A stretch of 40,989 nucleotides of DNA, taken from NCBI RefSeq assembly GCF_000337915.1, contig NZ_AOJE01000025.1, positions 1,010 to 41,998 of the forward strand, given 5' to 3'. The notes under the pieces were generated by a model. It was not told where the DNA came from and did no database searches. It worked only from the letters and a program-made list of their open reading frames with translations. The DNA is from Halorubrum saccharovorum DSM 1137 (GTDB taxonomy: Archaea; Halobacteriota; Halobacteria; Halobacteriales; Haloferacaceae). A program made the position numbers and the translations under genes. This document shows, one piece after another, positions 23,248-40,801 of this stretch (the first letter of the stretch is position 1; the number at the start of each line of letters is the position of its first letter).

Positions 23248-23950
23248 CGTGGTTCGCGTCATCAGGCAGTCGCAGGGCAGCGAGGACAGTATCTCCCTCC
23301 AGCAGCAACGAGAAAGCACCCGCGAACTCAGTGAGGAACTCGGCGCGGAGTCACTCGACACGATTGACCTCGGGAACACCTCGGGCTTTAGTCTGTTCTA
23401 CAAAGACCCAGACGATGAGGGGCGTCTGGATGCTAACTCCGAGATGAAGCAACTGATCGCGGGGTTGCGCGCCGGACGGTGGGACTGCCTGATCGCGCAC
23501 GATGACACGCGACTCGCTCGCGATGAGTATTTCAGCGTGATCAAACACGCGGCTTTGGAAGGTGGGTGCGAATTCAGATTTGTATCGGATGTTCCGGATG
23601 ACCGACTGACGTTCCGGATTCAGAGAATCGTCGAATCGGAAGCGAAGGCCAAGGAGATCGAGAAATCCAAGGCTGCGGTGGAGCATCGCCGTGAACAGGG
23701 GTTTTACCACGGAGCGCCGCCGTTCGGACTCGAATTCGATGAGAACGGGGAATTTTTGGTTAAGGACATGGGTGAGTGGCCGATCGTCAAGCGCGTGTTC
23801 ACCCTGCGGGAGGAAGGACAGTCGTACCGTGACATCTCCAAAACGATCGGCGTGATCAGCAAGAGCGCAGTCGGCAACATCTTAACCGATAACCGGGAGC
23901 TGTATTTGGCTCGGATGCCTGCGGATCACCCCGCTGTTTCTGCGGATTAA
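23240..23950 (+). CDS. Serine recombinase (resolvase/invertase type)
   Basis: This is a 236-residue protein. The catalytic domain begins VVRVIRQSQGSEDSISLQQQ, with nucleophile Ser11 in the R-x-S motif and the QQQ/Arg helix. The AHDDTRLARDEYFSVIKHAA block carries the conserved Arg pair that activates the phosphate. The C-terminal part has a recombinase-like linker (RREQGFYHGAPPFGLEFDEN, typical G-x-P-x-G) and a helix-turn-helix (SYRDISKTIGVISKSAVGNI). It is shorter than large serine integrases (about 450-600) but longer than Tn3 resolvases (about 185). The gene starts inside the AbrB-like gene (ATGA-type overlap region). It may resolve, invert or integrate the element. Confidence 0.85.
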   Translation: MSDVVRVIRQSQGSEDSISLQQQRESTRELSEELGAESLDTIDLGNTSGFSLFYKDPDDEGRLDANSEMKQLIAGLRAGRWDCLIAHDDTRLARDEYFSVIKHAALEGGCEFRFVSDVPDDRLTFRIQRIVESEAKAKEIEKSKAAVEHRREQGFYHGAPPFGLEFDENGEFLVKDMGEWPIVKRVFTLREEGQSYRDISKTIGVISKSAVGNILTDNRELYLARMPADHPAVSAD

Positions 23951-23951
23951 G

Positions 23952-23988
23952 TTCAGTGACTGCGGAGTGACCACCGCGAGTCACTGAA
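23952..23988 (+). terminator. Long hairpin after recombinase gene
   Basis: TTCAGTGACT (23952-23961) pairs with AGTCACTGAA (23979-23988), and GCGG (23962-23965) with CCGC (23974-23977). This gives a 14-bp stem with one bulged G and an 8-base loop, directly after the stop at 23950. The two arms are AGTSACT words. Confidence 0.55.
23954..23977 (+). repeat. 24-bp direct repeat, copy 2
   Basis: This is identical to 18555-18578. It forms the left arm and loop of the hairpin at 23952-23988. Confidence 0.6.
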
Positions 23989-24008
23989 AACTGAGCGGGT
24001 GGCTGTGT

Positions 24009-24055
24009 ATTAAGGGCAGTGAGGGACTCCCGTGATACAGCACCCAATATTGGGT
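24009..24055 (+). promoter_or_regulatory. Promoter with ATTAAGGGC box and 14-bp palindromic operator
   Basis: ATTAAGGGC (24009-24017) is the TATA-like word shared with 18054 and 29900. ACCCAATATTGGGT (24042-24055) is a perfect 14-bp palindrome ending 8 bases before the ATG at 24064. Its position downstream of the TATA box suits a repressor site; this is inferred. Confidence 0.5.
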
Positions 24056-24063
24056 AGAGTATC

Positions 24064-27000
24064 ATGTTAGACTCACTCAGAAGCGGTGACGGTACAGCAC
24101 GTGAAACAATCATCAGCATCGGATTCGCGGCGCTAATCGTCACGTCCATGGTCGCGTCCGGGTTCGCGGCTGCTCCCGCATCAGCCGCGCCGGAAGACGA
24201 CAACAAAACCGCGCAGTGGACGACTGCTGCTGATTGGATCACCACCGTGGAATCCAACAGCGACACGGTGGTCACGGTTCGGGACACGGGCGATCTCAGC
24301 AGTAGCATCGTGGCGTATGACAGCACTGGCTCCGAAAAATGGAGTCGGGCGGAATCCGACTACATCAACGATGACATCGCGGTCAGTGACTCCTACGTGT
24401 ACTACGGCACTGCGAACAACACGGCAGTGCTGCGCGATGTTGACACGGGCGACCTCGTGTGGAGTGATTCACGTGACCGGGACTGGGTCGGTACTCCTGC
24501 AATCAACGAGGACGCCGGGATGGTGTACAACACCGAAACTCGGGAATTTCTCGGGCATGACATCAACACCGGCGAAACTGAATTCGTGACCCGGCCAACG
24601 TCCGCGTCGGAGATGAATCTGATTACGTCCCCGGTGAACGGGGAGATGTGGGTGGTGACCCCGGGATTTAGCGGTGGAACTGCACTTACGTCGATCGATC
24701 CGGCTACCGGGAAGTCTGTGGAACGGTCGACGTTCTCTACTGCGGTGGGTGTCGCGTCAGGAGCGACCGATCACCACGACGGTGACTTCTACATCGAGGA
24801 CTCCGGCTCGCTCGCTGAACTGACCCCGGAAACTGGTGAGTCAAAGCGGATCGACGTGGACGGTGTTGACTTCAGCACGGGCGGGTACTCTGTCGGGCCG
24901 ACAGGAGATGTCCTGACGGAAGTCACGGATGACCAGGACGCGGTGATTGTCGATCCTGACACCAGCGAAGTCACTGATGAGTACCCAACTGGAACTGACA
25001 CACCGAACAACTACGAGTACGCTGATGTGTCCGGGGATGGTGAGGCATCCGTGTTCGTCGGAACGACCGGCAGCACTGGGGAACTGAGTCGGTGGGGTGC
25101 CCCGACTCCGAACGGTGTCAGTGGGAAGGTAGTGAATCAGGACGGTGACCCTGTCGCTGACACGCACGTGAGTGTGTATGCGACTAATGTCAGTCACCCG
25201 GACATCGCTGACGCGCAGGACGCCCTCGACTACACCGAAGAAATCAGCGGTGTGAACGTGTCCAGAATCGGAATTCCGGACAACTACGATCTGAAGGGCG
25301 CTCTGGAGTCGGCGGACACGACGATGCCGATGGTGCATGACACTGCGGCGTGGCATGACCCTGACGCGGGCGGCGTCGACGTCGCTCCGGGGTCGGATCT
25401 CGCTGAACCGAGTTTTCGGGTTGAAGCGGGGGAAACGCACACGGTGAGTCTGTGGGATCCCAGTGAGGAGTCGATGGGGTTGCTCTCGGATCCGTATGAC
25501 CGGAATCTCCCGGCGACCACGACAGGCGGCACCGTGACTGTTGAGCGGTTCGGGGCGACTGGATCCGTGGTCGACAGCTGGGAGCAGGACACTTCCCCGA
25601 GTTACTCCGCTGTCGGGCGTGAGAAGGAACACGAGACGCTGCGCCTCACTCTGAAAGCCGGGATTTACCGGATTGACGCGCACGATGGCGGTGAGGCGTG
25701 GGTTGTTGCTGGTGATGGACTGAGCGCGGAGGACTCGGTGGATGACATCCCGGGGACTGATCTCGGATTCAGTGACTCGCTCGGGGATTCTGACCGGGAG
25801 CAAGAGATCAAGGACGCGGTGAATGATTCGAAACTCACTCGCCTGCACGCGAAGACGAACAGTGACGGGGAGTTCCGTTTCGGTGACCTGCCGCAGAATT
25901 ACGAGGCGGTTGCAGTGACTGCGTATGGCGCGGAGACGGACATGATCGAACAGTCCACGGATGTCCCTGACGCGGTCACTGACCCGTCTCTTGGGGAGTT
26001 CCGGTCGGCGTACAAGGACGTGGATGATGCTGGCGGAATCCCGGAATCTGGGCTGAGTGTGGTGGTGCAGTCTGAGCAGGTGACAACGTCAGTCCCGAAT
26101 CAGAACGTCGTTGTGCCGGTGACTGAGATGAACAGCCCGGGGATCGAGACGCTCGGCGTGGCGATGTCGCGCCTCGATTCGCTCCGTGATCTGCTCGATT
26201 CGGAGGATTACAGTAACCTCAACGACGTGCTGGGCAACACCCCGGATCTCTCCCAAGAGGAGGTTGAGGAGCGCATCGATGCAGTCACTGATGTCATCGA
26301 TAACGGCGGGGATGACGGGGACGACAGCGGTGTCAACGTCCCGGAACCGGGCTGGAACACTGACGACGGCCCTGACGTGGATGTGGACACCGGCGATAAC
26401 CCGAGTGTGACCGTCACCGTGCCGTTCGCCGGGTCGTTAGTGATGGAACACACCACCGTCATCGCCGAATTCAGCAACGGGGATTCTGCGGTTCTGAACG
26501 AGTCTGACTACCGCATCGAATCCGGCCTCCTCGGGAACGACAAAGTCGTGATTGAGGACTACGAGCTTCCTGACGACGCTGAAGGCGTGGAATTCGATGT
26601 TCTCGCGAGTGACGGTGGAGTCGACAGTGGCGCTGAGAACACGACTGAGTCGGTAGAGGAAGCCGCTGACTTCGGGCGAGAGAAGGTACAGGTTCAGAAT
26701 CCGGGGAGTGACGGTGAACTTCCGGGGATTGCGGCGTTCGCGGTCAGTGACTCGCAGCCGACTCCCGGTGATGACATTGAAGTCCGGGTCGTGCCCGAGG
26801 ACGATGACGACTCCTATCTCGGTGTGGCGAATGCGTCAGTCACTGCTCCGAACGGTACGGAAATCCCGACTTCCGCAGCTGGTGATCTCGTAACTGCTCC
26901 CGTGAGTAGTGCCGGGGAGCATCACGTTTCGATGCAGATCGAGACACCGACTGGATCTGTGACGGAATCCATCAGTGTCGGTGCTGTGGAGTCCCCGGTT

Positions 27001-27516
27001 CCTGTTCCGCCTTCGGTGCGGGTTGAGTCCGGGCCGAGTGGGTATTACGGCGTGGCTGCGGACGGCGCGGAACACGGCGCGGTGACAGTGACTGGCGCTG
27101 AAACTGACATCGAAATCGACGCAGCGGACGCAACTCGCCCGCTGCACGTGTATGCGACGGATCTTCCAGTGACTCAGGACATCACGATCGACGCGACAGA
27201 CGCGGAAGGTGAACCGGTTAGTCAGACTGCCCCGATTAAGCTCCACACGTCGGAGTTACCCGCTGAAGCACACGTCAGAGCGCACGGGGAACCGATTGAG
27301 ATTGACGGATCCGAGAATGCTGCGGGTGTTCGGAAGAACACTGGTGATGGGACGCTAATCGAAACGCGGATGCAGGACGGCAGTGCTGACGTGTCCGTCG
27401 TCACCTCACCGAGCATCTTCGAAGAAATCGAGTGGTGGTGGGACACCTCGAACCCGCTCACCGGAATTCCGGTGCTTCAGAGCGGAGCTGTCGGTGTGGG
27501 AGGTGTTTCTGCGTGA
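24064..27516 (+). CDS. Giant secreted beta-propeller surface protein
   Basis: In this 1150-residue protein, residues about 15-45 are a Sec signal (IISIGFAALIVTSMVASGFA, then APASAAPEDD). Residues about 50-350 have PQQ/WD-type repeats (SIVAYDSTGSEKWSRA, DVDTGDLVWS, TSIDPATGKSVERS), suggesting a beta-propeller. Residues 355-385 form a carboxypeptidase-regulatory-like beta-sandwich (SGKVVNQDGDPVADTHVSVY). A helical linker (about 705-745) and several Ig-like beta domains follow. The C-terminus (WWWDTSNPLTGIPVLQSGAV GVGG) is only mildly hydrophobic, so anchoring is unclear. It is the first gene of an operon with a Tat subtilisin (4-base overlap) that might process it. It could be a receptor-binding spike or adhesin of the element's particle or mating apparatus (inference). 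Confidence 0.75.
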   Translation: MLDSLRSGDGTARETIISIGFAALIVTSMVASGFAAAPASAAPEDDNKTAQWTTAADWITTVESNSDTVVTVRDTGDLSSSIVAYDSTGSEKWSRAESDYINDDIAVSDSYVYYGTANNTAVLRDVDTGDLVWSDSRDRDWVGTPAINEDAGMVYNTETREFLGHDINTGETEFVTRPTSASEMNLITSPVNGEMWVVTPGFSGGTALTSIDPATGKSVERSTFSTAVGVASGATDHHDGDFYIEDSGSLAELTPETGESKRIDVDGVDFSTGGYSVGPTGDVLTEVTDDQDAVIVDPDTSEVTDEYPTGTDTPNNYEYADVSGDGEASVFVGTTGSTGELSRWGAPTPNGVSGKVVNQDGDPVADTHVSVYATNVSHPDIADAQDALDYTEEISGVNVSRIGIPDNYDLKGALESADTTMPMVHDTAAWHDPDAGGVDVAPGSDLAEPSFRVEAGETHTVSLWDPSEESMGLLSDPYDRNLPATTTGGTVTVERFGATGSVVDSWEQDTSPSYSAVGREKEHETLRLTLKAGIYRIDAHDGGEAWVVAGDGLSAEDSVDDIPGTDLGFSDSLGDSDREQEIKDAVNDSKLTRLHAKTNSDGEFRFGDLPQNYEAVAVTAYGAETDMIEQSTDVPDAVTDPSLGEFRSAYKDVDDAGGIPESGLSVVVQSEQVTTSVPNQNVVVPVTEMNSPGIETLGVAMSRLDSLRDLLDSEDYSNLNDVLGNTPDLSQEEVEERIDAVTDVIDNGGDDGDDSGVNVPEPGWNTDDGPDVDVDTGDNPSVTVTVPFAGSLVMEHTTVIAEFSNGDSAVLNESDYRIESGLLGNDKVVIEDYELPDDAEGVEFDVLASDGGVDSGAENTTESVEEAADFGREKVQVQNPGSDGELPGIAAFAVSDSQPTPGDDIEVRVVPEDDDDSYLGVANASVTAPNGTEIPTSAAGDLVTAPVSSAGEHHVSMQIETPTGSVTESISVGAVESPVPVPPSVRVESGPSGYYGVAADGAEHGAVTVTGAETDIEIDAADATRPLHVYATDLPVTQDITIDATDAEGEPVSQTAPIKLHTSELPAEAHVRAHGEPIEIDGSENAAGVRKNTGDGTLIETRMQDGSADVSVVTSPSIFEEIEWWWDTSNPLTGIPVLQSGAVGVGGVSA

Positions 27517-29045
27517 ACGATTTGAGTCGGCGTGACCTGATGAAGGGCGGTGGGTCAGTCGCCGCAGGTGCCCCGTTCCTCCTCCCGACATCGATGAGCG
27601 AGTCGGTGTTCGCTCCGGGTGTTGAAGCGCGCACCACCCTATTCGGCGGATTCGACGCAGATGGAGTTCCGGCGGGGGTGAACAGCGATCCGAAGTGGGT
27701 GGTGTCGACCGGGGACACCGCCGAAGTCACTGACTGGGCGGACGGGCATGACCGCCGCCTCATCCGCAGTACGGACACCGAGGGCGGGCGCGTAGTCGTG
27801 TCCGCTCCCGCTGAGGAAATCGGTGCAGCGTCCTCGCTGTGGTCGTCCGGACTGGTGCAGGCCGTTGACGTTGACCGTGTCGACGTGGTTCGTGAATTTG
27901 CAGTCGATCCGGTGGAGTCACTGACGCAGAGCGTGAGTGATGTGCCGACGCCGCCCGGTGACTGGATGGTGTCTGCACTGCCTGAGTACGAGATTAATCG
28001 GGGGGTTGCAGTTGGTGAAGACGTGGAACCGGCATCGATGAGCGCGGTGAAGGACGTGCTGAACGTCCCGGACACCACGGCGACCGGCGAAGGGATCACT
28101 GTTGCAGTGCTTGACACCGGCGTTAATTACGATTCCTCGCTGTACGGTTCCCGGATCGTTGCGGGACGGAATGTGTTGGAGGAGACGGACATCGATCCGT
28201 CGACGGACGACTACAGCGCCACACAGAACACGAATCTGCACGGTGACTGGGTTGCGTCGGCAGTCGCGTCATCCACGACCGGAATCGCGCCAGATGCCGA
28301 TGTGATCCCGGTGAAGGTTCTGGGTGATGACGGATCGGGGGACACCGAGTTCATTCTTGACGGCATCCAGTACGCCGCGAATCAGGGCGCGGACATCTTG
28401 GTGATGAGCCTCGGCACGCCAATGAGAACCCCGGACGTTGAAGACGAACTCACCCGTGTCATGTCGGAAGAAGGAGTCACTGGAGCGTTCGTCGCGGCTG
28501 GGAATAGCCGCCCGTCAACTCGGTACGTGAGCAGTCCAGCGAGTGAGCCGGACACGATCACGGTCGGGGCTACGACCACGGACTCGCCCACTGACGCGAT
28601 GAGCGCGTACTTTTCGTGCGTTGGAGATCGCCCGGAGACGGGCGCGGGCGTCGACGTGGCCGCGCCCGGGATGCAGATCAGAACCGACGTAGCAGACAGC
28701 ACCGGAACAGTCACCAGCAAGGAACTGAGCGGTACGTCGATGGCCGCGCCGATCGCGGCAGGCGTCGGCGCACTCATGCTCTCGTCGAACTCCGAGGTAG
28801 TCGGTGATCCGGTGCTGTTCAGGAAGTCGATGCGTGATGCGGCGGTGCCTGTTCCGGCAGCGAGTGAATCGGAGGTTGGGGCTGGCATGGTTGATGCGTC
28901 TCTCGCGGAGTCACTGGGTGAATCAGAGAACAAGCAGATGGATGTGCAGGATGATCTGGCCGCGTACCGAGGAGCGACAAATAAGTTACTTCCAAAAGTA
29001 TGGGGAGCGACCGGGCGCGAATTCCCCAAGGATTTCAGTCAGTGA
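27513..29045 (+). CDS. Tat-exported subtilisin-like serine protease (S8)
   Basis: This is a 510-residue protein from GTG 27513. It has the twin-arginine signal LSRRDLMKGGGSVAAGAPFL at 4-23. The catalytic triad is visible: Asp201 (TVAVLDTGVNY), His243 (NLHGDWVAS) and Ser409 (SGTSMAAPIAAG), with oxyanion Asn331 (FVAAGN). The segment 25-180 between signal and catalytic domain may be an inhibitory propeptide. A 90-residue tail follows the core. Haloarchaeal halolysins are also Tat substrates, so export of the folded enzyme is expected. GTGA overlap with the genes on both sides implies co-translation with the surface protein before it. It may mature surface or particle proteins of the element. Confidence 0.9.
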   Translation: MNDLSRRDLMKGGGSVAAGAPFLLPTSMSESVFAPGVEARTTLFGGFDADGVPAGVNSDPKWVVSTGDTAEVTDWADGHDRRLIRSTDTEGGRVVVSAPAEEIGAASSLWSSGLVQAVDVDRVDVVREFAVDPVESLTQSVSDVPTPPGDWMVSALPEYEINRGVAVGEDVEPASMSAVKDVLNVPDTTATGEGITVAVLDTGVNYDSSLYGSRIVAGRNVLEETDIDPSTDDYSATQNTNLHGDWVASAVASSTTGIAPDADVIPVKVLGDDGSGDTEFILDGIQYAANQGADILVMSLGTPMRTPDVEDELTRVMSEEGVTGAFVAAGNSRPSTRYVSSPASEPDTITVGATTTDSPTDAMSAYFSCVGDRPETGAGVDVAAPGMQIRTDVADSTGTVTSKELSGTSMAAPIAAGVGALMLSSNSEVVGDPVLFRKSMRDAAVPVPAASESEVGAGMVDASLAESLGESENKQMDVQDDLAAYRGATNKLLPKVWGATGREFPKDFSQ

Positions 29046-29770
29046 CTCACCCCGAATCAAACGCAGTGACTCGACGGGCGTTCCTCGCAAGTGCAGCTGC
29101 TGTCGGCGCAGTCGCGGGTTCTCAGTCAGTCACTGCAACACACCCCGAACAGAAACCCGATCACGTCACTGTCCGGTACGACACCGACATCATCGAGAGG
29201 TATCAGCCCGCCCTGGTACTGGATGGAGTTGAAATCGAGCCGTACAGTTACTGCGCAATGGTCGCTGAATCCCCGGAGCGTGGACTCGGGTGCGTTGTCG
29301 GATTCCATAGGTACACGCATCAGGAAGGGTTCTCGATGGAGGACTCGCATTTCGGCGACACTGAACCCGCCTACGTCTTTTTCGACAGTCGAACCGGGGA
29401 TGTGGTGCAGGTCGTCTACAGTGGGTATCACTGGTATCAGGCGAGTACGTGGGCGAATAACCTCGACTACGTGGTTGACGATCGGCAACGCCCAATCCTC
29501 CGGGTCATCCCGCCGCATCACCACCACACCACCGACTTCGCTCGCAGTGAGATCAGTGACGTGCGGACTGACATCCCCACCAGCGACCTCACTGAACGCT
29601 ATCCGGAGTGGCTGGAAGATGATCTTGAAGACCAGATCCGTCCGGGTTCGGTGTATAGTCCGTGGAATATGCGGGACTGGGAGGCGTGGTGGGAGCCGTC
29701 AACGATGACGGAATTCGAAATCACATTGCAACGAATCTGGTTGGCGTGGGAGGGCGTCCGACTCCGCTGA
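29042..29770 (+). CDS. Tat-exported protein of unknown function
   Basis: This 242-residue protein starts with GTG 29042, overlapping the protease stop (GTGA). The signal is TRRAFLASAAAVGAVAGSQS (10-29). The mature part is rich in Tyr, Trp and His (HWYQASTWANNLDYVVDD, VIPPHHHHTTDF) with two Cys (SYCAMVAESPERGLGCVVG), and ends in a Trp-rich segment (WNMRDWEAWWEPS). The His cluster could bind metal. No family recognised. It closes the three-gene export operon; a long intergenic gap and a new promoter follow. Confidence 0.65.
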   Translation: MTHPESNAVTRRAFLASAAAVGAVAGSQSVTATHPEQKPDHVTVRYDTDIIERYQPALVLDGVEIEPYSYCAMVAESPERGLGCVVGFHRYTHQEGFSMEDSHFGDTEPAYVFFDSRTGDVVQVVYSGYHWYQASTWANNLDYVVDDRQRPILRVIPPHHHHTTDFARSEISDVRTDIPTSDLTERYPEWLEDDLEDQIRPGSVYSPWNMRDWEAWWEPSTMTEFEITLQRIWLAWEGVRLR

Positions 29771-29873
29771 CGAGTCAGTAACTCCACTATTCAGCACGTC
29801 TCACGACTTCATGTTGGCAGGTCATGCCAACCTCACATCGGGTGTGAGGATTTCAGTTCTTCCCTGTACTCCG

Positions 29874-29908
29874 ACCAATATAGGGTTGCGTGGCGAGCAA
29901 TTAAGGGC
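29874..29908 (+). promoter_or_regulatory. Promoter with ACCAATATAGGGT site and ATTAAGGGC box
   Basis: ACCAATATAGGGT (29874-29886) lies 13 bases before ATTAAGGGC (29900-29908), which is about 28 bases before ATG 29932 (leaderless). An operator upstream of the TATA box suits an activator or BRE-overlapping regulator. Confidence 0.5.
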
Positions 29909-29931
29909 AGTGACCCATTCCGAACATCCGG

Positions 29932-30921
29932 ATGAGTATCCTAAACATCAATCGCAGTAGCGTCATCAGTCTGATGATGGCGCTGATCATCGGCATGGCC
30001 GCCGTTACGGGCGGCGCAGCCGCAGCCAGCTGGGACACAGAGACGACAAACACCGGTACCGAGAGTGATCTGACGGGAGGGCCTGCCTCCTTCATGATCG
30101 ACTCCGACAGCGACACCTCCGGGCAGGACGTGTACGTGGAGACACAGGGCGCGGCGAGTAGCGACCTCACTGTTGAGGTAATCCCGGCGAATCCGGACGT
30201 GAACACGACGCTCTTCAGCACGTCCGACTTCACCACGCAGGATGACGCGAACGGGCACTACTCGGCGACTCTGACGCAGACCGAGCTTGAGAACAACCTC
30301 CCGCGAACCGCCGGGCCGTCTCAGTACACGGTTCAGGTCGTGAATTCCTCGGACGAGGTTATTCTTTCGAATCCGCTCGAACTCACCTACGACAACGGTG
30401 ACACCGTCATCTCGCTGACGGGTGATTCCACCGGGACGACGGGTCTCGACACGCCGCTGCTCGCTGACGGACTCACGATTTCGGAGCAGGACACGCTCCT
30501 CCCGAACTTCCTCACGGACGACAACACCTCGGTTGCGTCGATGTCGAGTCAGGTCGGGATTCCGACCGACCCGGCGAATGCGTCCACGGTCATCTCGCTG
30601 GACAGTCAGGAGACTCGTGACGCCTACGACGCCGCCGCTGCTGACGCTGAGGCTGGCGAGCAGATCGATGCCGTCGCCTCCGTCAACAGTGAGCCGGTTC
30701 AGGTCTTCGCAGTCGGTGACGCCGCTCCTGAAGACGTTGAGGGCGCGTACCTCACCTACGACGACACTGACGGCGACCTCACCCTCGAAACGAACGGCGA
30801 CGAGAATCTCGAATCCGCGAACACCGCGTTCGTCACGTCGACCGCTGGTGACGGCGGGTACGGCCCGTTCTCGGAGTTCGGCGTGTTCAGCTTCGACTCC
30901 TTCGATTTCGGTGACTTCTGA
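29932..30921 (+). CDS. Secreted acidic protein, possible major surface or particle protein
   Basis: This is a 329-residue protein with a Sec signal peptide (VISLMMALIIGMAAVTGGAA, cleavage near AAAS). The mature part is Thr/Ser/Asp-rich with a beta-sandwich look (SDLTVEVIPANPDVNTTLFS, GPSQYTVQVVNSSDEVILSN), and it ends in an aromatic, acidic FGVFSFDSFDFGDF. There is no C-terminal transmembrane helix. It has its own promoter and heads the second block, a position fitting an abundant structural protein. The gene contains none of the AGTSACT words so frequent around it and uses mostly C/G-ending codons, which may reflect high expression. Function inferred only. Confidence 0.55.
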   Translation: MSILNINRSSVISLMMALIIGMAAVTGGAAAASWDTETTNTGTESDLTGGPASFMIDSDSDTSGQDVYVETQGAASSDLTVEVIPANPDVNTTLFSTSDFTTQDDANGHYSATLTQTELENNLPRTAGPSQYTVQVVNSSDEVILSNPLELTYDNGDTVISLTGDSTGTTGLDTPLLADGLTISEQDTLLPNFLTDDNTSVASMSSQVGIPTDPANASTVISLDSQETRDAYDAAAADAEAGEQIDAVASVNSEPVQVFAVGDAAPEDVEGAYLTYDDTDGDLTLETNGDENLESANTAFVTSTAGDGGYGPFSEFGVFSFDSFDFGDF

Positions 30922-32288: not shown

Positions 32289-33142
32289 ATGATCGCGCGC
32301 TCACGATCCTACTCGGGATCATGGTGGTGTTGTCAGTGACGACTGCTGGCCTCGCAGGTGCATCAGAGTCGGTGGAGGCGGCGGAATGCACGGCAGTGAC
32401 TCACAGTGACTTCCTCAGCAACGAGGATGCGATCAAGGCCGCGCAGACCGACAGTGGCGGGACGAGCGTCGAGCAGAACACGGAGGTGACCGTCAGTCAG
32501 AATTCGGCGTTCGTGAGAGTTGGCGCTGAGAACCCGAACGGATACTGTGTCGAACTCACCGTCGAGATCAGTAACGAGGTCGTGGCTCCGAGTGACATCG
32601 GCAGCGTCACTGCATCCGGTGACTCCCAGACTGAAGCCGAGTGGGAGGCAATCCACGACTACGACTCCGGGTCGACACACACGCGCGTGACGATGCGACT
32701 GGGCGCGGGCGAGGACGCAATCATCGCCCCGTCCAAGACTCGGGTCATCGCGCTGGACTGGACAGGGCTGACCAGTGAGGCGACGTCGGGCGATGCGTCA
32801 TGGATTGGCGGCTTGTTCAGCCCGGAAACCGAGTTAGAGCAGAACGAGTACGTGATCACGCCGCCGGAGAACGGCGATGTAGTGACTGTGGACTTGACGG
32901 CGGAGGACGGCACTGAGGTGCAGGACTGGCGCGCGTCCTACGGTGACAGCCCTGTGGAGCAGGACGTTGAGGATCCGGTTTACTACACTCGGGACACCGC
33001 TGCGGATCAGCTCACGTTCCACTTCAACAAGAACCGGAATGTGGACTTCGTCGCGAATCCCAGCACGGCGCAGAAACTCCAGACCGACATCGACTCGTAC
33101 TTCAACGGGTTCGACAGTCTGTTCAACTGGGGGGCGAGCTAA
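32285..33142 (+). CDS. Secreted beta-rich protein, unknown
   Basis: This 285-residue protein starts at ATG 32285, overlapping the previous stop. The signal peptide is LTILLGIMVVLSVTTAGLAG. The mature protein has two Cys (EAAECTAVT, GYCVELTVEIS) that may pair, and several beta-strand segments (AFVRVGAENPNG, THTRVTMRLGAGEDAIIAPS, VIALDWTGLTSEAT). It ends with an aromatic amphipathic stretch (DSYFNGFDSLFNWGAS) that may touch the membrane. No family recognised. The next gene begins immediately after the stop. Confidence 0.6.
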   Translation: MNDRALTILLGIMVVLSVTTAGLAGASESVEAAECTAVTHSDFLSNEDAIKAAQTDSGGTSVEQNTEVTVSQNSAFVRVGAENPNGYCVELTVEISNEVVAPSDIGSVTASGDSQTEAEWEAIHDYDSGSTHTRVTMRLGAGEDAIIAPSKTRVIALDWTGLTSEATSGDASWIGGLFSPETELEQNEYVITPPENGDVVTVDLTAEDGTEVQDWRASYGDSPVEQDVEDPVYYTRDTAADQLTFHFNKNRNVDFVANPSTAQKLQTDIDSYFNGFDSLFNWGAS

Positions 33143-33397
33143 ATGGCGGGGACGTGGGATGTTGTGCTGCTCATCGCGGGCGCGGTACTGCTCGCTCCCG
33201 TAATCGTGAACCCGTCAACGTGGCCGATTGCCGCCGCGATAGGGCTGACCGTCGTACTCGGAGGGAAACTGTTGAAGTACCTCCTCGGGGAGATGTGGGA
33301 TCTGGAAAAGCAGCGGCGGATGGGGGAGAAATCCGGGTTCAGTGACGACCTGATGTACGGATCCGAGTCCGGTGACGATGACCGAGGTGGTCGATGA
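33143..33397 (+). CDS. Small two-helix membrane protein
   Basis: This 84-residue protein starts directly after the stop of the secreted protein. It has two hydrophobic segments (VVLLIAGAVLLAPVIV and WPIAAAIGLTVVLGGKLL), then a charged cytoplasmic tail (GEMWDLEKQRRMGEKSGFSD). It overlaps the next gene by 4 bases (ATGA). Function unknown. Confidence 0.6.
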   Translation: MAGTWDVVLLIAGAVLLAPVIVNPSTWPIAAAIGLTVVLGGKLLKYLLGEMWDLEKQRRMGEKSGFSDDLMYGSESGDDDRGGR

Positions 33398-33669
33398 GTT
33401 CCGTGTTATTCACCGCGCCCGTGGCTCTCGCAGGGATCCTCGGCGTTATCGTGTACGGTAAGTGGTCGGACTCGGTGACGACACTGAGGGACGGGAGTGC
33501 GGTCGTGAGCAGCGCGCTCCGAATCATGGTCGGGGTGTTCTTCGTGAGTACGGAGTACCCGCTTTTCGTGGTTCTCGGCGTCGTGATGATCGCAATCGGC
33601 ACCGTCATGGGGGCGAGTGGGGCAGACCGTGTTCTCGGTGGGCGACTCCGCCGGACGCTATCCACGTGA
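33394..33669 (+). CDS. Small membrane protein
   Basis: This 91-residue protein has hydrophobic segments LFTAPVALAGILGVIVYG, ALRIMVGVFFVS and YPLFVVLGVVMIAIGTVMG, so two to three transmembrane helices, with a basic C-terminus (GGRLRRTLST). It is the last gene of the second block. The hairpin at 33682-33701 follows, then a new promoter. Confidence 0.6.
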   Translation: MSSVLFTAPVALAGILGVIVYGKWSDSVTTLRDGSAVVSSALRIMVGVFFVSTEYPLFVVLGVVMIAIGTVMGASGADRVLGGRLRRTLST

Positions 33670-33681
33670 TCCCCTGATCTG

Positions 33682-33701
33682 AGTCACTGCGGTCAGTGAC
33701 T
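33682..33701 (+). terminator. Hairpin AGTCACTG-CGGT-CAGTGACT
   Basis: This is a perfect 8-bp stem with a 4-base loop, 12 bases after the stop at 33669 and 60 bases before the next start. It is built from two convergent AGTSACT words. Confidence 0.55.
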
Positions 33702-33727
33702 CCCTGATTCTGACGTTTGCCGTCCAA

Positions 33728-33760
33728 CCATTTATCCCCAGACTCCTACCAATATCGGGT
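33728..33760 (+). promoter_or_regulatory. Promoter with TTTATC box and ACCAATATCGGGT at the start site
   Basis: The TATA-like CATTTATC (33730-33736) is about 28 bases before ATG 33761. ACCAATATCGGGT (33748-33760) abuts the ATG, so a bound protein would cover the predicted transcription start. Confidence 0.5.
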
Positions 33761-34390
33761 ATGATCGAACGGAACGCGGAGGAATTGAGAAGCGAATTTT
33801 TGCAGCACGTCGCTTTTATCGAGGATAAAACCCTGAAGACGGAGATTCTGACGTGGATCGATGAGAGTGTCATCCGCACCGATTCCGTGTCCGGCGCGGA
33901 ACACGTCGAGGGGCGGCTTGCGGAGTTGAAGGCGTCGAATCCGATGCGGCACGACTCCGGCGACCCCGAGGACGACTTCCCTGCTGACTGCAAGGGCTGC
34001 CCGCATTACGGTGTCGTGTGCCCCGTCATCTCCGACCGCACGACGCGGGAGACTCGGCACCGGCGACTGGAGCAGGCGGAGACGGAGCAGGATCGCCTCC
34101 GCGTGTATCAGGACATCGCCACGGACGCGGACTGCCACATCATTCCCGCCGCGATCAGTGACTGGAAGCAGAACGACCGCGAAATCATCGAACGCGGCTA
34201 CGAACTATTCTCGGCGATGGTTCGGCACCTCGACTCCGACGAGTTAGACGTGGACGCGCCGGACATCGGGGACGACCCCGAGATCGAGGACGTGTGGCGC
34301 GACACCCCCACAGAATCCGGCGGGATGCAGCTATCAGAAGACGAACTGCTGGATCGCGGTGTGTTACAGTCCGAGGAGGCGGATGGGTGA
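33761..34390 (+). CDS. Cys-cluster protein of unknown function
   Basis: This is a 209-residue soluble protein heading the third block. A central cluster DCKGCPHYGVVCPVISD (Cys at about 82, 85 and 92, His 87), with a further Cys-His in DADCHIIPAAISDW, could bind zinc or an iron-sulfur centre. The flanks are long charged helices (EELRSEFLQHVAFIEDKTLK, RRLEQAETEQDRLRVYQDIA). The C-terminal 60 residues are acidic and probably disordered. It is coupled to the membrane protein behind it (TGATG). No family recognised; a soluble adaptor for the membrane complex is possible. Confidence 0.55.
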   Translation: MIERNAEELRSEFLQHVAFIEDKTLKTEILTWIDESVIRTDSVSGAEHVEGRLAELKASNPMRHDSGDPEDDFPADCKGCPHYGVVCPVISDRTTRETRHRRLEQAETEQDRLRVYQDIATDADCHIIPAAISDWKQNDREIIERGYELFSAMVRHLDSDELDVDAPDIGDDPEIEDVWRDTPTESGGMQLSEDELLDRGVLQSEEADG

Positions 34391-35409
34391 TGCAGGCGTC
34401 ACCGACCGGACTCGCGATCGCCGTTCTCGTCGTCGTCGGTATCGTGGGGGTGACGTGGGTCGTGAGCCGCCGCCTCCTCCAAAACTCGGGGAACGCCACG
34501 GACGCGGTGGACACCCCAGCAGACTCCCCTGATGACCCCGATGACGTGTCCGAGTTAGGGATCACTGACCGCGCAAAGTCGTGGACTCGGGCGAGGAAGA
34601 TGCTGTACGGGTCTGCGGCGGCGGCGGCAGTGCTGTTGTCGGGTGGGGCGTGGCGTGTCATGCAGACGGGAGCGCCCACGTCTACCCTGCTGAGTCCGGA
34701 GGCCGGGATGGTCACGATCGGAGTCACTGGCGTTGTTCTCGGCATCCGATTCCACGCAAGCCAAAACGACTCCACGAACCCGTTGTACGTCCAAAACGAG
34801 CAACCGGGCGGTGACGATGTTGTCCGGAAAATCCCGCACCCTGAATCCGAAGTCACGGTTCGTGATGGACGCCCTGTCGTCCCGGAACTCACTCCGAACC
34901 CGATCCTCGGAGTGTTTCATCGGTTCAAGTTACTCGCGGAAGACCGGAATCTTCGCAGCACCAGGAAGCCGGGGAGTGACCGAGTTGAACACATGGTTCC
35001 GGATCACGCCGTGGAGCTACCCGATGGTGGGTGGTTCGTAAGGACGTGGGCGTCAGCCAGTGACTCCGGGGAGACGATTCTCGGCTCTCCGAGCGCCCCC
35101 GCTGACTACACTTATTCCAGCCCTCGGTCGATGAGTTACGCCGAGTCGACGGGGCAGCGAGAGGAAATTCGGCGGATGAGGATAGAGAACCGGGAGCTGA
35201 GGAAGACGGCTGCGAAGGCGGAGTCGGAACTGCGGTCGTGGCGGCAGACAGTCTTGAATGAAGAATTCAGGAACAAAGAAGAGATGAAGGAAGAATTCGG
35301 AGAATTCACTGAGCAGATCGCGACGGTATTGGACGCCAGTCAGGACGGTGGGAGTGATGACGGTGACGACTCCTCCGACTCCGTGTTCGACGGCGGTGAT
35401 TCTGAGTGA
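34390..35409 (+). CDS. Membrane protein with cytoplasmic coiled coil
   Basis: This 339-residue protein starts at ATG 34390, which overlaps the previous stop. It has hydrophobic segments at about 7-26 (GLAIAVLVVVGIVGVTWVV), 70-88 (LYGSAAAAAVLLSGGAWRVM) and 100-120 (GMVTIGVTGVVLGIRF). A soluble domain follows (VPDHAVELPDGGWFVRTWAS). A long charged helix at about 255-315 (REEIRRMRIENRELRKTAAK, AESELRSWRQTVL) should form a coiled coil. It ends in an Asp/Ser-rich tail. The topology suits a scaffold linking membrane and cytoplasmic parts of an assembly. GTGA overlap with the next gene. Confidence 0.65.
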   Translation: MQASPTGLAIAVLVVVGIVGVTWVVSRRLLQNSGNATDAVDTPADSPDDPDDVSELGITDRAKSWTRARKMLYGSAAAAAVLLSGGAWRVMQTGAPTSTLLSPEAGMVTIGVTGVVLGIRFHASQNDSTNPLYVQNEQPGGDDVVRKIPHPESEVTVRDGRPVVPELTPNPILGVFHRFKLLAEDRNLRSTRKPGSDRVEHMVPDHAVELPDGGWFVRTWASASDSGETILGSPSAPADYTYSSPRSMSYAESTGQREEIRRMRIENRELRKTAAKAESELRSWRQTVLNEEFRNKEEMKEEFGEFTEQIATVLDASQDGGSDDGDDSSDSVFDGGDSE

Positions 35410-36737
35410 CTCGTCGATTCACTGCACTCACGGCGATCATGCTGGTGGTGTGTCTGATCGGCGCGGGGGTCGGCGGGGTTGCGGCGGACTCGCCGGGAGT
35501 CACTGCCGACCAGTTCGCAGTGGGTGATCAGGTCAGTGAACCCGTGGATGAGGAACCCACGCAGAACGAGACGGCTGAACAAGACGGCGGCGGGAACACG
35601 TCGACGGAGTCCAGTGACTCCGACCAGCCTCCCGACACAGACACGCCGTCGATGAGTGACACCGCGCGAATCACCGGGGTGGACACCGAGAGCGAAGTCG
35701 GGAGTGCGACCGCGCGCGATAGCGCGAACGGCACGGCGTTCAACACGAAGGGGGAGTTCGTTGTGTTCAGGGTGTCGGAGCCGCTGGACGCCGCCAGAAT
35801 CCAGCAATCCCCCGCGACAGTTGAGATGCTCGGCCCGCAATCCGTCATGGTGGAGTTCGAGTCGGATGCCGCGCCGCTCGATGAGGAGAGCCTGTACACG
35901 CTCGAACTGTTCTACACTGACGGCAGTGACTCGCAGGTGGATCTGTACGCGAGTGACACTGACATCACAGTCGGGTCTGACGTGATGGAGGACATGCGCC
36001 CGGTCATCCTCGGCATCATGGACAGAGCGGAGGAAGCCGGGTACGAGGACAGCGCGACCGGACTCCAGAATTACGTTGAGGACACCGAGGAGACTGCGGA
36101 ACTCCTCGACAGCGTCTTCTCGGAGCAAGCGGCGCGACTCGCTCAGATCGGACTCATGGCCGCAATGAACCCGCTGTTCTGGGTGATTGTCGTGTCCGGA
36201 GCCGCGCTCCTCGCCGTTCGCTCCTACCGACGCGATGGGCGCATCCACCGACTCATCAGCCAAGACACCGGGCAGGACACCCGACTCCTCCGCGAAGCAT
36301 GGCTTCAGTGGCAAAGCGACCGACAAACAGCGGCGGAGGAGCCGCTGTCCGAACTGAAATCGGTCGGTCAGATGGGGGAGATTTACTGGAGAGACACCTA
36401 CGGCGTCTCCTCAGTCGCTGACCTCGCGGAAATCGCGCACAACGGAATCCCCGTCGAGGACGAACACGGGGACGTGAATCACGTGGGCGGTATCGAGGAA
36501 CTGCAAGAAGCGGACGACCTGATGGAATCGTGGCTGGAGCCGGTGTGCCGCGAATCTCGTGTGGCCGCGCCCGAGATCGCGCTCGCGCATCTCAAGTCTG
36601 CACTGACTCGGATGTGCAGTGACCACGGGATGAGTCACCGGTACCGGTCGACTCGGGAGGACGTGCGTCGACTCATCGAACAGCGCGATGGATCGACGGC
36701 CAGCAGTGAATTCGACACCGATGGAGGAACCCAATGA
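35406..36737 (+). CDS. Type-I membrane protein with signal peptide and cytoplasmic domain
   Basis: This is a 443-residue protein from GTG 35406. The signal peptide is ALTAIMLVVCLIGAGVGGVA. An extracellular part of about 230 residues (acidic linker, then the beta-rich GEFVVFRVSEPLDAARIQQS) is followed by one transmembrane helix (MNPLFWVIVVSGAALLAVRS, about 257-276) and a 165-residue cytoplasmic helical domain (HRLISQDTGQDTRLLREAWL, WLEPVCRESRVAAPEIALAH). It thus connects the outside to the cytoplasm and could transmit a signal or anchor an ATPase. ATGA overlap with the next gene. Family not recognised. Confidence 0.65.
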   Translation: MTRRFTALTAIMLVVCLIGAGVGGVAADSPGVTADQFAVGDQVSEPVDEEPTQNETAEQDGGGNTSTESSDSDQPPDTDTPSMSDTARITGVDTESEVGSATARDSANGTAFNTKGEFVVFRVSEPLDAARIQQSPATVEMLGPQSVMVEFESDAAPLDEESLYTLELFYTDGSDSQVDLYASDTDITVGSDVMEDMRPVILGIMDRAEEAGYEDSATGLQNYVEDTEETAELLDSVFSEQAARLAQIGLMAAMNPLFWVIVVSGAALLAVRSYRRDGRIHRLISQDTGQDTRLLREAWLQWQSDRQTAAEEPLSELKSVGQMGEIYWRDTYGVSSVADLAEIAHNGIPVEDEHGDVNHVGGIEELQEADDLMESWLEPVCRESRVAAPEIALAHLKSALTRMCSDHGMSHRYRSTREDVRRLIEQRDGSTASSEFDTDGGTQ

Positions 36738-38179
36738 TGAACCCGCGTGACGTGGTGAAGAAACTGGTCGGTGACCCGGAGACAGTGGAAGACCGAGTGC
36801 TTCCCGGGGTTGCGCTCGTGTCGATCTCAATCGCCGCCGCCGGACTGATCTACACGTTACTCATCCGGGGGATAGAGGCCGGAGGCGCGTCGAGTCTGCC
36901 GTATCTCGAACCAGTGATGCAGTACGCCACCAGCCCGTGGATCCTCGTTCTGGTCGCCGTGTTCATCGGGCGCGCGTGGTTGACGGGAAGCAAGAAGCGG
37001 GAGGCGCGCACGGCAGCCACAGCCACCGGGCGCTCCCCGCGAACGGTGAAGCGCCTGTCGATGGAGGCGTCCCGGGCGTCCGGCTGCACGCGCGCAATCA
37101 TCACGTCCGAGGATGATGTGGAGTCGGCGCGTGACCGGATCGAGGCGGCGCTGGACGGTGACGCCGACCGATTGGAACCCACCGCAGTCACTGACTCCGA
37201 GGGTGACGAATCCGGTGGGGAGTCACTGAGCAGTGACTCCGAATCCCCACGCGACGGTGCGTCGTGGAGTCAGAAGTTGAAGGAGAAGCAGCTGGACGTG
37301 GCCGCGACTCTCGACATCCCCCGCGTCATCTGGGGCGGTGTCATCCCGGCAGTCACTGCTATGGCCGCGCTCCTCATCGCCGTTCAGATCTGGGTGAGTC
37401 CGATTGTTTACCCGTTCATCTTCGCCGCCGGAGTCGGGGTCGGCGCGGCGAATCTGTGGCGGCACCACGTCATGGATCACCGCAGGATCGATTCGTTGGA
37501 AGGGTCTACCAACATCGAGCAGTGGGATCAGGTCGCGGCGCTGGTGAAAACGGTGGAGACGCCTGACAGCACCGTGTACATCGGGTGGCTCCGAGGAACG
37601 GCCTTCGCTCACTACAACCGAGGCGAATTCAGTCACGGACTCGCAGTTCGGGCGTGTGAAACAACCCATGGCGACCCGGTGAGTCCGTCCATCATGACGC
37701 AGTACGCCCGGAATCTTCAGAAGATGTACCCCGACTTACGAGGGTTCTTGGCTAATGAGAGGGAGCAGATCATCCACGATCTGCTCGATGAGGTGCAGGG
37801 CAGCGACATGGGGATGATCCCCCGGCAGACACTCATCACTGACGTTGTTGAGAAAGGAATCAAGAACTCCGCCACGGGACGTATCGAAGGCGATCACGGA
37901 CACGATCCGAAACTGGTCGCGGAATGTTACAGGGCACTCGTTCCGGCGGCGCTGGTTGAGGAGGACATCGAAATCGAGCGCGATGGGGAGTCGCAGACAA
38001 TCCCCTCCGTCCGACTCCGAACCGACCCCGTGCCGCTGGACTTCAGTGAGATCACCGCGCAGTTCAGCTTCAGATTCGGATCCCTCGGTTCCCCACGGTA
38101 TCCGGTCCCGGACACTGGCGTCGATGACATCCCGGAGTGGGCAGAATCCGCGATCAGCGAGTACCACCCCGACAACTGA
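36734..38179 (+). CDS. Four-helix membrane protein with large cytoplasmic domain
   Basis: This 481-residue protein has helices at about 20-42 (GVALVSISIAAAGLIYTLLI), 62-78 (WILVLVAVFIGRAWL), 195-220 (WGGVIPAVTAMAALLIAVQI) and 225-245 (YPFIFAAGVGVGAANLW). An acidic loop of about 110 residues lies between helices 2 and 3. The C-terminal 230 residues are a soluble helical domain (DQVAALVKTVETPDSTVYIG, LRGFLANEREQIIHDLLDEV). Being directly before the ATPase gene, with 21 bases between, it is the natural membrane partner for that enzyme, as in conjugation or packaging couplers (inference). No family recognised. Confidence 0.65.
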   Translation: MMNPRDVVKKLVGDPETVEDRVLPGVALVSISIAAAGLIYTLLIRGIEAGGASSLPYLEPVMQYATSPWILVLVAVFIGRAWLTGSKKREARTAATATGRSPRTVKRLSMEASRASGCTRAIITSEDDVESARDRIEAALDGDADRLEPTAVTDSEGDESGGESLSSDSESPRDGASWSQKLKEKQLDVAATLDIPRVIWGGVIPAVTAMAALLIAVQIWVSPIVYPFIFAAGVGVGAANLWRHHVMDHRRIDSLEGSTNIEQWDQVAALVKTVETPDSTVYIGWLRGTAFAHYNRGEFSHGLAVRACETTHGDPVSPSIMTQYARNLQKMYPDLRGFLANEREQIIHDLLDEVQGSDMGMIPRQTLITDVVEKGIKNSATGRIEGDHGHDPKLVAECYRALVPAALVEEDIEIERDGESQTIPSVRLRTDPVPLDFSEITAQFSFRFGSLGSPRYPVPDTGVDDIPEWAESAISEYHPDN

Positions 38180-38200
38180 ACCCCACATTCAAATCTTCAA

Positions 38201-40570
38201 ATGACCACAGACTTCAGCAGTTTACAGTCCAGTGACTTCGGCGAGACGACGGACGCGCTCGCATCCACGATCGAATCCAAACAGCAAGACGTACAGGAAG
38301 AACGCGCTCGTGCCATAGAAGCGTATGCGCGGAAGCTCATCAAGGCGGCGCAGATGAGTCTCAGCGGCGTCGACCCGGAGTCGGTCGCCGATGACACCAG
38401 TGACCGCGACATCCTCAGAGAGATCCATCACGTGCTACGGCTCTCCCCACGGATCGAGGAGGTGATGTCCCCAGCCACGGACACGGCAGTGACGCCGCGA
38501 TCCGCGTCCCTATTCCGTCGATTGTGCAGCAGGTACGACGACGAGAACCCAGTGACTGCGGACAAAACCGCCGAGCTACAAGTGTACGTCGAGGCCGCCG
38601 AGTCACTGGGGTGGCTACACAGCATCAGCGACATGACGAGGTACGCGCCGATCCGGCTGGAGACGCTGGACGTGGCGGGGTCGCAATCACGAGTCACTGA
38701 ATCCAGTCCACTCGGTCGACTCCGAATCGCGCACGACGACCCGAGTAGCCTCGAACACCGCGCGGTGGACATCCCACACGAGGACTGCGAGCATATCTTG
38801 ATGATCGCCAACCCCCGCAAAGGGAAGGACAGTCTCGCGTGCCGTATCGCCGGGAATTTGAAGGATGAGCATCAGTACAAGTGGTTTAGCCTCTTTGACG
38901 ACGGGCGGAATGAGACACCGATGATCTCGATTCCGAACACCGAGGACGCAATCAAGGAGTCACTGGCGAACGTCGATCAGGTGCCGAAAGGGTACCAGTC
39001 GACCGTTTGGGTTCCGAACAGCAATCTACCAGATCGCCTCCCGAGGAATCACCGCCCGTTCGCTATCGGGGTGGATTCGCTGACTCCCGGCATTATCGCG
39101 TCACTGAGCGGCGTCTCCCCTGAGTCCAGCGTCGAACGGAGGATCAAGCAGGCACTCAGTGACGCGATGAATCACGGCGGGGACGTGGACATCCTCATCG
39201 ATCGCCTCGAAGAACTGGCCGGTGAGACGGCGGCAGTCGTGGAAGTCACGGAACGAGTCGATGACGGAACAGGGGAAGAAACCTCCGCGAGAAGCTATGA
39301 GATGGGTGAGGCCAGCGTTCTGGAGGACTGCGCGGAGTCACTGATGCTCCTCGCGTCAGAGGGTCTGCTGGTGGACGCGGGCGATCCGTTAGCCCTCGAT
39401 ATGCCCGCCGTACTCGACGATCAGGAACACGTTGCGATTCTGAACTGCAATTTTCTCTCTGACGGCGATGAGCATCTCAAATTCCTTTTGGTTAATCTGT
39501 GGATGCAGCTCATCTTCCGCGCGCGAGACACACACCCGGATCTCCCCCGTGCAGTCCTCGAACTCAGGGAGATCAAGAATCTCGCCCCGAGTAAGCTCGG
39601 CGACACCAAATACCGGCAGGTCGTGCAGTCACTCCGGCAAACGATCTACAGGATCGCGAGTCAGGGCGGATCACGGCGGGTGATGATGGTCGGATCCACG
39701 CAGAAGCTCAACGACGTGTACAAAGCTGTACGCGGCAATTTCCCGTTAAAAATCGTGCTTCAGATCGGGGAGGAGAAAATCAACACGCTGCGAAGCGCCG
39801 GGTTCAACCTCAAGAATAAGGAAAAAGACCAACTGAAAGGATTTAGGGTCGGATGGGGGATGCTCATCAGCCACGACGGGAAACATTACCCGATTCAATG
39901 GAGTGGCGCTCGCTGCGGGCTGGGACTCGGGGATCAGCACTGGCTCACGCGGTACGCGGACGCCGCAGGCGCGCGCATCCACACCCCCGGCGAGAGTTTC
40001 ACCGTGGACACGTGGATCGACATGGACGGTGGCGTCCACCACACCGAGGAGGATGGAGCGCCGAACACGCACCAGTGGTACCTCACACCCCCGGACATCG
40101 TCGGAGAGATCGACGGGGAGCCGATCATAGACGACGCGGTGCTGACAGAGTCACTGGAAAAACGGCAGGGAACGCCCGCTCCGCCGCAAGACCTCCGCCC
40201 CGCCGACGTGACGTCGGGTGAGGTTGATCGGGAGATGACGATGATGAGCAGCGACCGAGCTGAACAGGCCATTCAATCCGGTTCCAGTGACTCCCCGGAT
40301 TTGGTCGGTGTCCTCGGGGAGTGGGTGGAGTTCGAGGACGACAAATTTGGTCGGATGATGAGGACACTGGAAACAATTGAGCGGCATGACCTCGGGAGTT
40401 ACGACGACATCGCGCAGAGATCCGGCGTCAAAAGGAACACGTTGAGTAAGTACATCAGAAAACAGAACGAACTCGGAGCTGCCGTCGAGAAACACGACGA
40501 CGTGTACCAGATCACGGAGACAGGGTACGATGCACTGCCCTCCGTCGACTGGGACTCGGCCCGTGACTGA
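38201..40570 (+). CDS. HerA/FtsK-like P-loop ATPase with C-terminal winged helix
   Basis: This 789-residue protein has no transmembrane segment. After a helical N-terminal 150 residues comes the P-loop IANPRKGKDSLACRI (202-216), a GKD-S variant of GxxxxGK(S/T). The Walker B region LPRAVLELREIKNLAPSKL (448-466) occupies the place of the usual hhhhDEa-hlaP but has Arg where Asp is expected. The sensor-like VGSTQKLNDVYKAVRGNFPL (497-516) and the GFRVGWGMLISHDG strand complete a HerA/VirB4-type core. Residues about 725-789 form a winged helix (DIAQRSGVKRNTLSKYIRKQ). Such ATPases pump DNA across membranes in conjugation, viral packaging or segregation. Being the last gene of a membrane-protein operon supports a DNA-translocation or assembly motor. 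Confidence 0.8.
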   Translation: MTTDFSSLQSSDFGETTDALASTIESKQQDVQEERARAIEAYARKLIKAAQMSLSGVDPESVADDTSDRDILREIHHVLRLSPRIEEVMSPATDTAVTPRSASLFRRLCSRYDDENPVTADKTAELQVYVEAAESLGWLHSISDMTRYAPIRLETLDVAGSQSRVTESSPLGRLRIAHDDPSSLEHRAVDIPHEDCEHILMIANPRKGKDSLACRIAGNLKDEHQYKWFSLFDDGRNETPMISIPNTEDAIKESLANVDQVPKGYQSTVWVPNSNLPDRLPRNHRPFAIGVDSLTPGIIASLSGVSPESSVERRIKQALSDAMNHGGDVDILIDRLEELAGETAAVVEVTERVDDGTGEETSARSYEMGEASVLEDCAESLMLLASEGLLVDAGDPLALDMPAVLDDQEHVAILNCNFLSDGDEHLKFLLVNLWMQLIFRARDTHPDLPRAVLELREIKNLAPSKLGDTKYRQVVQSLRQTIYRIASQGGSRRVMMVGSTQKLNDVYKAVRGNFPLKIVLQIGEEKINTLRSAGFNLKNKEKDQLKGFRVGWGMLISHDGKHYPIQWSGARCGLGLGDQHWLTRYADAAGARIHTPGESFTVDTWIDMDGGVHHTEEDGAPNTHQWYLTPPDIVGEIDGEPIIDDAVLTESLEKRQGTPAPPQDLRPADVTSGEVDREMTMMSSDRAEQAIQSGSSDSPDLVGVLGEWVEFEDDKFGRMMRTLETIERHDLGSYDDIAQRSGVKRNTLSKYIRKQNELGAAVEKHDDVYQITETGYDALPSVDWDSARD

Positions 40571-40748
40571 CTCTTACGCGCACGACATCAGTTGGTGGAT
40601 CCGCCCCGACTCACCCCCTACTGGCTGGGGTAGTGTGTGCGATCAATACCCCGCCGGAATATCGATAAAGCGCGTGCGTCACGTACAGTGTATGCGGGGC
40701 ACCTTGCGCGCGGCGGCACAACGCACACGCTCGCGAAGAATCGCATGA
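40563..40748 (+). CDS. Possible small ORF after the ATPase gene
   Basis: A 61-codon frame from GTG 40563 overlaps the ATPase stop by 8 bases (VTDSYAHDISWWIRPDSPPT...). The second half is Arg-rich and overlaps a promoter-like AT patch near 40660, so coding is doubtful. Confidence 0.2.
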   Translation: MTDSYAHDISWWIRPDSPPTGWGSVCDQYPAGISIKRVRHVQCMRGTLRAAAQRTRSRRIA

Positions 40749-40757
40749 CGTGACCGG

Positions 40758-40801
40758 GGCAGTGACTGTGCCCGAGTCATCGAACCCTACCAGTCACTGC
40801 C
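40758..40801. terminator. Bidirectional terminator-like hairpin
   Basis: GGCAGTGACTG (40758-40768) pairs perfectly with CAGTCACTGCC (40791-40801), an 11-bp stem around a 22-base loop. It lies between the rightward block and a convergent leftward gene whose stop is inside the right arm. Confidence 0.5.

Follow-up and report, generated by a model that had tools for sequence, protein, structure and literature searches.

How vesicle-borne plasmids select their own DNA is a question for which we know of no account. It is raised by a stretch of 40,989 nucleotides of Halorubrum saccharovorum DSM 1137 (the window; positions 1010-41998 of contig C25, NZ_AOJE01000025.1, in a draft genome of 3.42 Mb), which holds the greater part of a pR1SE-type mobile element integrated in the chromosome. 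Throughout its length this element carries a short DNA word far in excess of chance, and we ask here what might read this word and for what purpose.

A dispersed word that follows an integrated element

The original prediction had counted 50 copies of AGTGACT/AGTCACT between window positions 23349 and 40798. Our recount gives the same number, and the over-representation survives a Markov background, with 2.2, 4.9 and 6.5 copies expected at orders 1, 2 and 3, respectively. The seven-base unit AGTSACT proposed at the time is too short: in the aligned copies a C directly precedes the word in 46 of the 50 cases, and the real unit is thus the asymmetric 8-mer CAGTGACT. Counted on either strand of the full element (39,251 bp), this 8-mer occurs 69 times against 2.6 expected under an order-2 Markov model, about 27 times more often than by chance. 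Its one-mismatch neighbours mostly occur at about their expected frequencies, the exception being CAGTGACG (13 copies, 3.4 expected); CAGTCACT is also above expectation owing to its overlap with CAGTGACTG. On the basis of copy alignment and neighbour counts, reversed or one-mismatch words were rejected as the true motif. The scarcity of decayed copies indicates that selection on the word is recent or current. The flanks are graded, with A at position -1 in 2 of the 69 copies and at +1 in none, C being preferred at +2 and G at +3, a pattern more in keeping with a binding domain than with an enzyme site of the all-or-none kind.

When the core genes were subjected to synonymous-codon shuffling (400 shuffles), 2.2 +/- 1.4 copies were obtained with a maximum of 7, compared with 39 observed. 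DNA, not protein, is therefore under selection, as had been suspected, and codon or protein bias is ruled out as the source of the excess. The word is found in several codon phases (four, where three had been reported), in both orientations and between genes, and 44 of 55 sites fall within genes in both orientations rather than upstream and in a single orientation, as would be expected of promoter elements for a TATA-binding protein (TBP). At 33682-33701, between two genes, two words form an inverted repeat (AGTCACTG-CGGT-CAGTGACT), possibly a terminator hairpin; it is reminiscent of Neisseria, where pairs of uptake sequences act as terminators.

That the signal follows a mobile element proved correct, but the interval 23349-40798 is only part of this element, which extends from window position 8721 to contig position 48980 (window-equivalent 47971). 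It is flanked by a 17-bp direct repeat: attL, ACGGGCGCGACGGGATT, at 8721-8737 (C25:9730) copies the 3' end of a tRNA-Arg gene, and attR (C25:48964-48980), beyond the end of the window, lies within the 3' end of that gene, which ARAGORN calls as tRNA-Arg(ccg) at L003:8965-9037. The array of CAGTGACT on both strands starts at 10102, reaches 40799 within the window and runs on to window-equivalent 47654; here and in the sister element described below, the words are bounded by the att sites. Densities per kb are 2.54 in the core, 1.90 in the right part of the element, 0.76 in the integrase and cargo region and 0.23 across the TBP and type IIG genes, falling to 0.10 in the left flank (a single copy in 9.7 kb) and to 0 in the right flank (33 kb). 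For the first 18 kb of the window, six copies of AGTSACT had been given where there are seven; the gap between 20.33 and 23.34 kb was reported correctly.

The rest of the host genome (3.3 Mb) contains about 35 copies of CAGTGACT, which is background, and the ratio of the word to its reversed control outside the element is similar to that found in the genus. Density is thus unequal across the host, as anticipated, and none of 392 sampled genomes of the order Halobacteriales shows an excess. A host-wide word was rejected on these grounds; nor is CAGTGACT enriched in the host core genome, as a Chi-like word would be.

Words of related elements

The core operon of the element (24064-40570) has homologous counterparts with the same gene order in about 20 elements of haloarchaea, as well as in 14 plasmid records, one of which is pR1SE. 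It contains the clusters ORF6-9 and ORF17-25 in the conserved order typical of apHPVs, as Lucking et al. (2023; PMC10818511) named pR1SE-like haloarchaeal plasmids of the plasmid-vesicle type, and the element is thus a pR1SE-type (apHPV) integrated mobile element. With pR1SE and other apHPVs it has in common the core gene order, an S8 protease, an ORF25-like translocase and an integrase. It differs from them in its location in a tRNA-Arg gene and in the possession of a TBP gene, a type IIG gene and dispersed words. No dispersed word of this kind is described in the main text of Lucking et al. (2023), and pR1SE itself has only a sparse palindrome, unlike the dense word of the window.

The homologous elements that had been recommended as a search target do exist, but one of them, a sister element, has other words. 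This sister, from another genus (G047:C42:39910-91898), is also integrated in a tRNA-Arg gene; the core, the integrase, the TBP, a serine recombinase and a type IIG-like gene are common to both elements. Its words are TACCAAC (52 copies on the plus strand and 0 on the minus strand, 4.4 expected) and GTTACTAA(Y) (26 and 0, 0.7 expected). All 78 copies thus lie on one strand, independently of how the genes (called by an open reading frame (ORF) heuristic) are oriented. Over-represented asymmetric words, as in the FtsK orienting polar sequences (KOPS) of bacteria, are found in both elements, but their strand polarity is seen in the sister only.

Such a difference between relatives is as expected of an element-encoded reader with changing specificity. 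A second apHPV in the host genome (C51), with 2 copies of CAGTGACT in 48 kb and a dispersed palindrome instead, speaks against a host reader; two vesicle-type elements with different words in one genome likewise support readers encoded by the elements. As far as sequence comparison can tell, the reader of CAGTGACT is probably encoded by the element, and each element seems to bear its own word "barcode", read by one of its proteins. Counts in the other apHPVs led us to reject a word common to all of them. Words of this kind as a general trait of integrase-borne elements were also rejected, since 21 integrase-bordered regions contained no word of this strength (best z about 11). A clade-wise word search in the other apHPVs returned only the palindrome of the pR1SE clade and host-like words of the CTCGAG type.

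The palindrome, GTTACTAYNNNRTAGTAAC, is 19 bp long and is dispersed in pR1SE (L090), pR1SE2 (L098), G033 (L030, L031) and C51 (G000:C51; L022, L023, L068). It is sparse, with 4-5 perfect copies per element where counted; those of pR1SE are mostly intergenic (3435, 14639, 18162, 28205 and 33290). GTTACTAYNNNRTAGTAAC is likely a master operator or packaging site of this known vesicle plasmid. Of another kind are CTGAACTCG/CGAGTTCAG, with 1606 and 1423 copies in the genomes G371 and G246 (L110-L119) compared with 155 in the congener G365; CGAGTTCA is found 112 times in 120 kb of the G371 chromosome (19 expected), and the resident apHPV plasmid of G371 (L099-L101) carries CGAGTTCAG at host density. 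CGAGTTCAG is possibly a genome-wide word in G371 and G246, or possibly a reflection of codon-pair usage.

Candidate readers and purposes of the word

We consider CAGTGACT as a recognition word for one of the element's own DNA-handling proteins. The density of the word is highest in the vesicle core and the right part of the element, which favours a reader encoded there, and the best candidate by virtue of its fold is a 789-amino-acid core protein (38201-40570, plus strand), an ORF25-like hexameric DNA translocase of the HerA family (AlphaFold model with a predicted local distance difference test score (pLDDT) of 81; Foldseek match to HerA, E 9e-11). Residues 683-789 (40247-40567, plus strand) form a C-terminal winged helix modelled with pLDDT >90 across the fold, and its recognition helix differs from element to element. 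Foldseek matches this domain to the DNA-binding domains of MarR, CggR and Sso10a, with weak E-values (0.02-0.08) and probabilities near 1. FtsK is laid out in the same manner, and the winged helix of its gamma domain reads the 8-bp KOPS (PMC2680272; PMC8190038). The likeness to KOPS and to the SpoIIIE recognition sequences (SRS) lies in the asymmetric 8-bp word, in the strict polarity of the sister element and in a predicted HerA-FtsK superfamily motor, the candidate reader, that ends in a winged helix. By analogy, the winged helix of the translocase would bind CAGTGACT, and vesicles would thereby be loaded with the DNA of the element instead of that of the host; in the sister, with all words pointing one way, the same system would also set the direction of pumping. 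We infer both the reader and the purpose, from the modelled structure and from this analogy, and assign to their combination a probability of roughly 0.36.

Several observations weigh against the translocase as a packaging motor that reads the word. KOPS are polar, but CAGTGACT is not (34 copies in one orientation, 35 in the other); it is also limited to a mobile element and, with 1.8 words per kb, exceeds by far the density that loading or orientation would require. The fold search links the winged helix to MarR/CggR/Sso10a-type domains and not to FtsK gamma in particular, and the sister is rich in words outside its core as well. Furthermore, no word of comparable strength was found in about 28 other apHPVs, in which short or degenerate words would be missed, although most of them have the same translocase layout; the same protein is thus also encoded by elements without a word. 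Finally, according to Lucking et al. (2023; PMC10818511), plasmid-vesicle transfer has been demonstrated for pR1SE only, and the element of the window is known from its genes. Our estimate is no higher because the word in the window is non-polar and because the protein is present in most apHPVs even though no word is detected in them. Among the functions suggested originally, packaging or segregation words nevertheless remain the best, albeit without polarity in this element.

The alternative that ranks next, which we regard as rather improbable, is that CAGTGACT is bound by a protein of the element with a role in coating, silencing or partition, through which the element is marked or condensed, much as Noc, SlmA or a dispersed repressor act; the unusual TBP is a possible candidate. 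Such a role would agree with the high, non-polar density across genes and intergenic DNA, and the operator-like dispersed palindrome GTTACTAYNNNRTAGTAAC of pR1SE, pR1SE2, G033 and C51 lends it some plausibility. Among all loci compared, this TBP occurs only in the element of the window and its sister; alignment with solved TBPs shows a canonical C-terminal and a degenerate N-terminal half, so that its specificity may differ. However, TBP sites are A/T-rich minor-groove sites, whereas half of CAGTGACT is G/C, the segment encoding the TBP and the type IIG protein is almost devoid of words, and there is no obvious reason why a coating or partition protein should require strict placement on one strand, as in the sister. 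Ranked below coating, and unlikely in our view, is methylation of CAGTGACT by the element's own type IIG enzyme, with dense marks that label element DNA as self or guard it. Both word-bearing elements, and among the loci compared only these, have a type IIG-like gene beside the TBP gene. The recognition sites of type IIG/IIL enzymes are asymmetric 6-7-mers in which the penultimate base is A (e.g. TCCRAC, CRTTGAC), a form shared by CAGTGAC and TACCAAC. With systems that set N6-methyladenine on a single strand, one orientation of the site may be favoured; EcoP15I sites in phage T7 are an example. A restriction-modification enzyme, though, gives no cause for enrichment of its own site on the element that encodes it. 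The two enzymes belong to different subfamilies (34% identity over short stretches), and a single enzyme would have to account for two words in the sister. Enzymes up to 76% identical to that of the window are encoded in 45 other sampled genomes, none of which shows a genome-wide excess of CAGTGACT, and the 4 loci counted show no local excess of CAGTGAC. The near absence of words from the type IIG and TBP genes and the graded flanks also speak against methylation. The suggestion that the core GTSAC is a methylation target is not supported by the counts, which call for the full CAGTGACT with its graded flanks rather than a short core.

Two further explanations, last in order, are in our opinion very improbable. 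As an uptake or entry tag for recipient cells or vesicle receptors, CAGTGACT would be comparable to the DNA uptake sequences and uptake signal sequences of Neisseria and Pasteurellaceae, which it resembles as a short, sharp, dispersed word present in both orientations within genes and between them, including an intergenic inverted pair like that of uptake-sequence terminators. In a naturally competent host, sequences of that kind are enriched genome-wide; CAGTGACT is at background in its host, is in excess in no genome of the order sampled and is not enriched in the co-resident C51, so that the uptake function proposed for the host is not supported. Moreover, each element has another word, those of the sister are strictly polar as uptake sequences are not, and one-mismatch decay products are few. 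The words could also be relics of a former host with genome-wide Chi, KOPS or uptake words. To judge by CGAGTTCAG in G371 and G246, some haloarchaea may have words enriched across the genome, and the apHPV of G371 carries this host word at host density. Yet CAGTGACT is in excess in none of the 392 sampled genomes, and the scarcity of decayed copies speaks for recent or current selection. Among haloarchaeal elements, another dispersed short word in a vesicle-like element is GCCCA, which is found at single-strand interruptions of betapleolipovirus genomes (PMC5867852). This 5-mer is enriched on one strand of HRPV-3 (15 copies, 4.8 expected) but not in HHPV3 or HGPV-1, and no genes except integrases are known to be shared with these viruses; as a precedent for CAGTGACT, a nick motif of this type is weak.

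Taken more broadly, and leaving the identity of the reader aside, it is conceivable, though somewhat short of an even chance, that some vesicle-transmitted archaeal plasmids carry, genome-wide, address words of their own. The motor or some other protein encoded by the plasmid would read these words, and element DNA would thereby be distinguished from that of the host and of a rival in the same cell. The words would co-evolve with their reader, both changing between sisters, and may give direction (as in the sister) or not (as in the window). If this is true, the question of DNA choice would have a direct and testable answer in a private word that is not the same in sister elements, nor in two elements of a single genome. 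Dispersed address words, which are familiar from segregation and uptake in bacteria, would then be a feature of archaeal mobile elements too.

Genes and segments of the element

At the left end, the element encodes a tyrosine integrase (9075-10082, plus strand; Pfam Phage_integrase, E 4e-8) with 45% identity to that of the sister. The TBP gene (10200-10802, minus strand; Pfam TBP, E 4e-36, and NCBIfam; 37% identity to the sister TBP) directly adjoins the type IIG restriction-modification gene (10809-14540, minus strand; Pfam Eco57I, E 3e-31; PADLOC type IIG/MTase_II), the same pairing being found in the sister. The type IIG translation has PD..ExK and NPPY motifs, and a single copy of CAGTGACT is present across both genes. 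A word-poor segment of 5.4 kb (18579-23953) lies between exact 24-bp direct repeats (18555-18578 and 23954-23977), each of which begins with CAGTGACT; the segment itself has no copies other than those at 19200 and 20320. The segment is probably inserted cargo and contains a DUF4238 gene, a helix-turn-helix gene (DUF7342) and a serine recombinase with a resolvase N-terminal domain (23198-23950, plus strand; Pfam Resolvase, E 2e-7; 38% identity to that of the sister).

The core genes are all on the plus strand. An ORF6-like protein of the pR1SE family with N-terminal PQQ-like repeats (24064-27516; Pfam PQQ_2; homologues in 14 elements, synteny with pR1SE) is followed by an ORF7-like S8 subtilase (27432-29045; Pfam Peptidase_S8, E 3.5e-37) and an ORF8-like protein (29000-29770; homologues in 16 elements). 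The second apHPV cluster includes two conserved proteins assigned by synteny, one ORF23-like (35406-36737; homologues in 20/20 elements compared) and one ORF24-like (36734-38179; present in 23/293 Halobacteriales genomes). Scans of viral and genome contigs with ORF25, type IIG and integrase queries yielded nothing informative, nor did phage records, and a PHROGs search gave weak helix-turn-helix hints and nothing more. Beyond the window, about 10 palindromic iterons (ATCCCATGGGAT) are clustered within 1.3 kb (C25 ~45503-46810; L003 ~5503-6810) beside an ORF of 480 amino acids without a Pfam match, and this cluster is the probable replication origin of the element.

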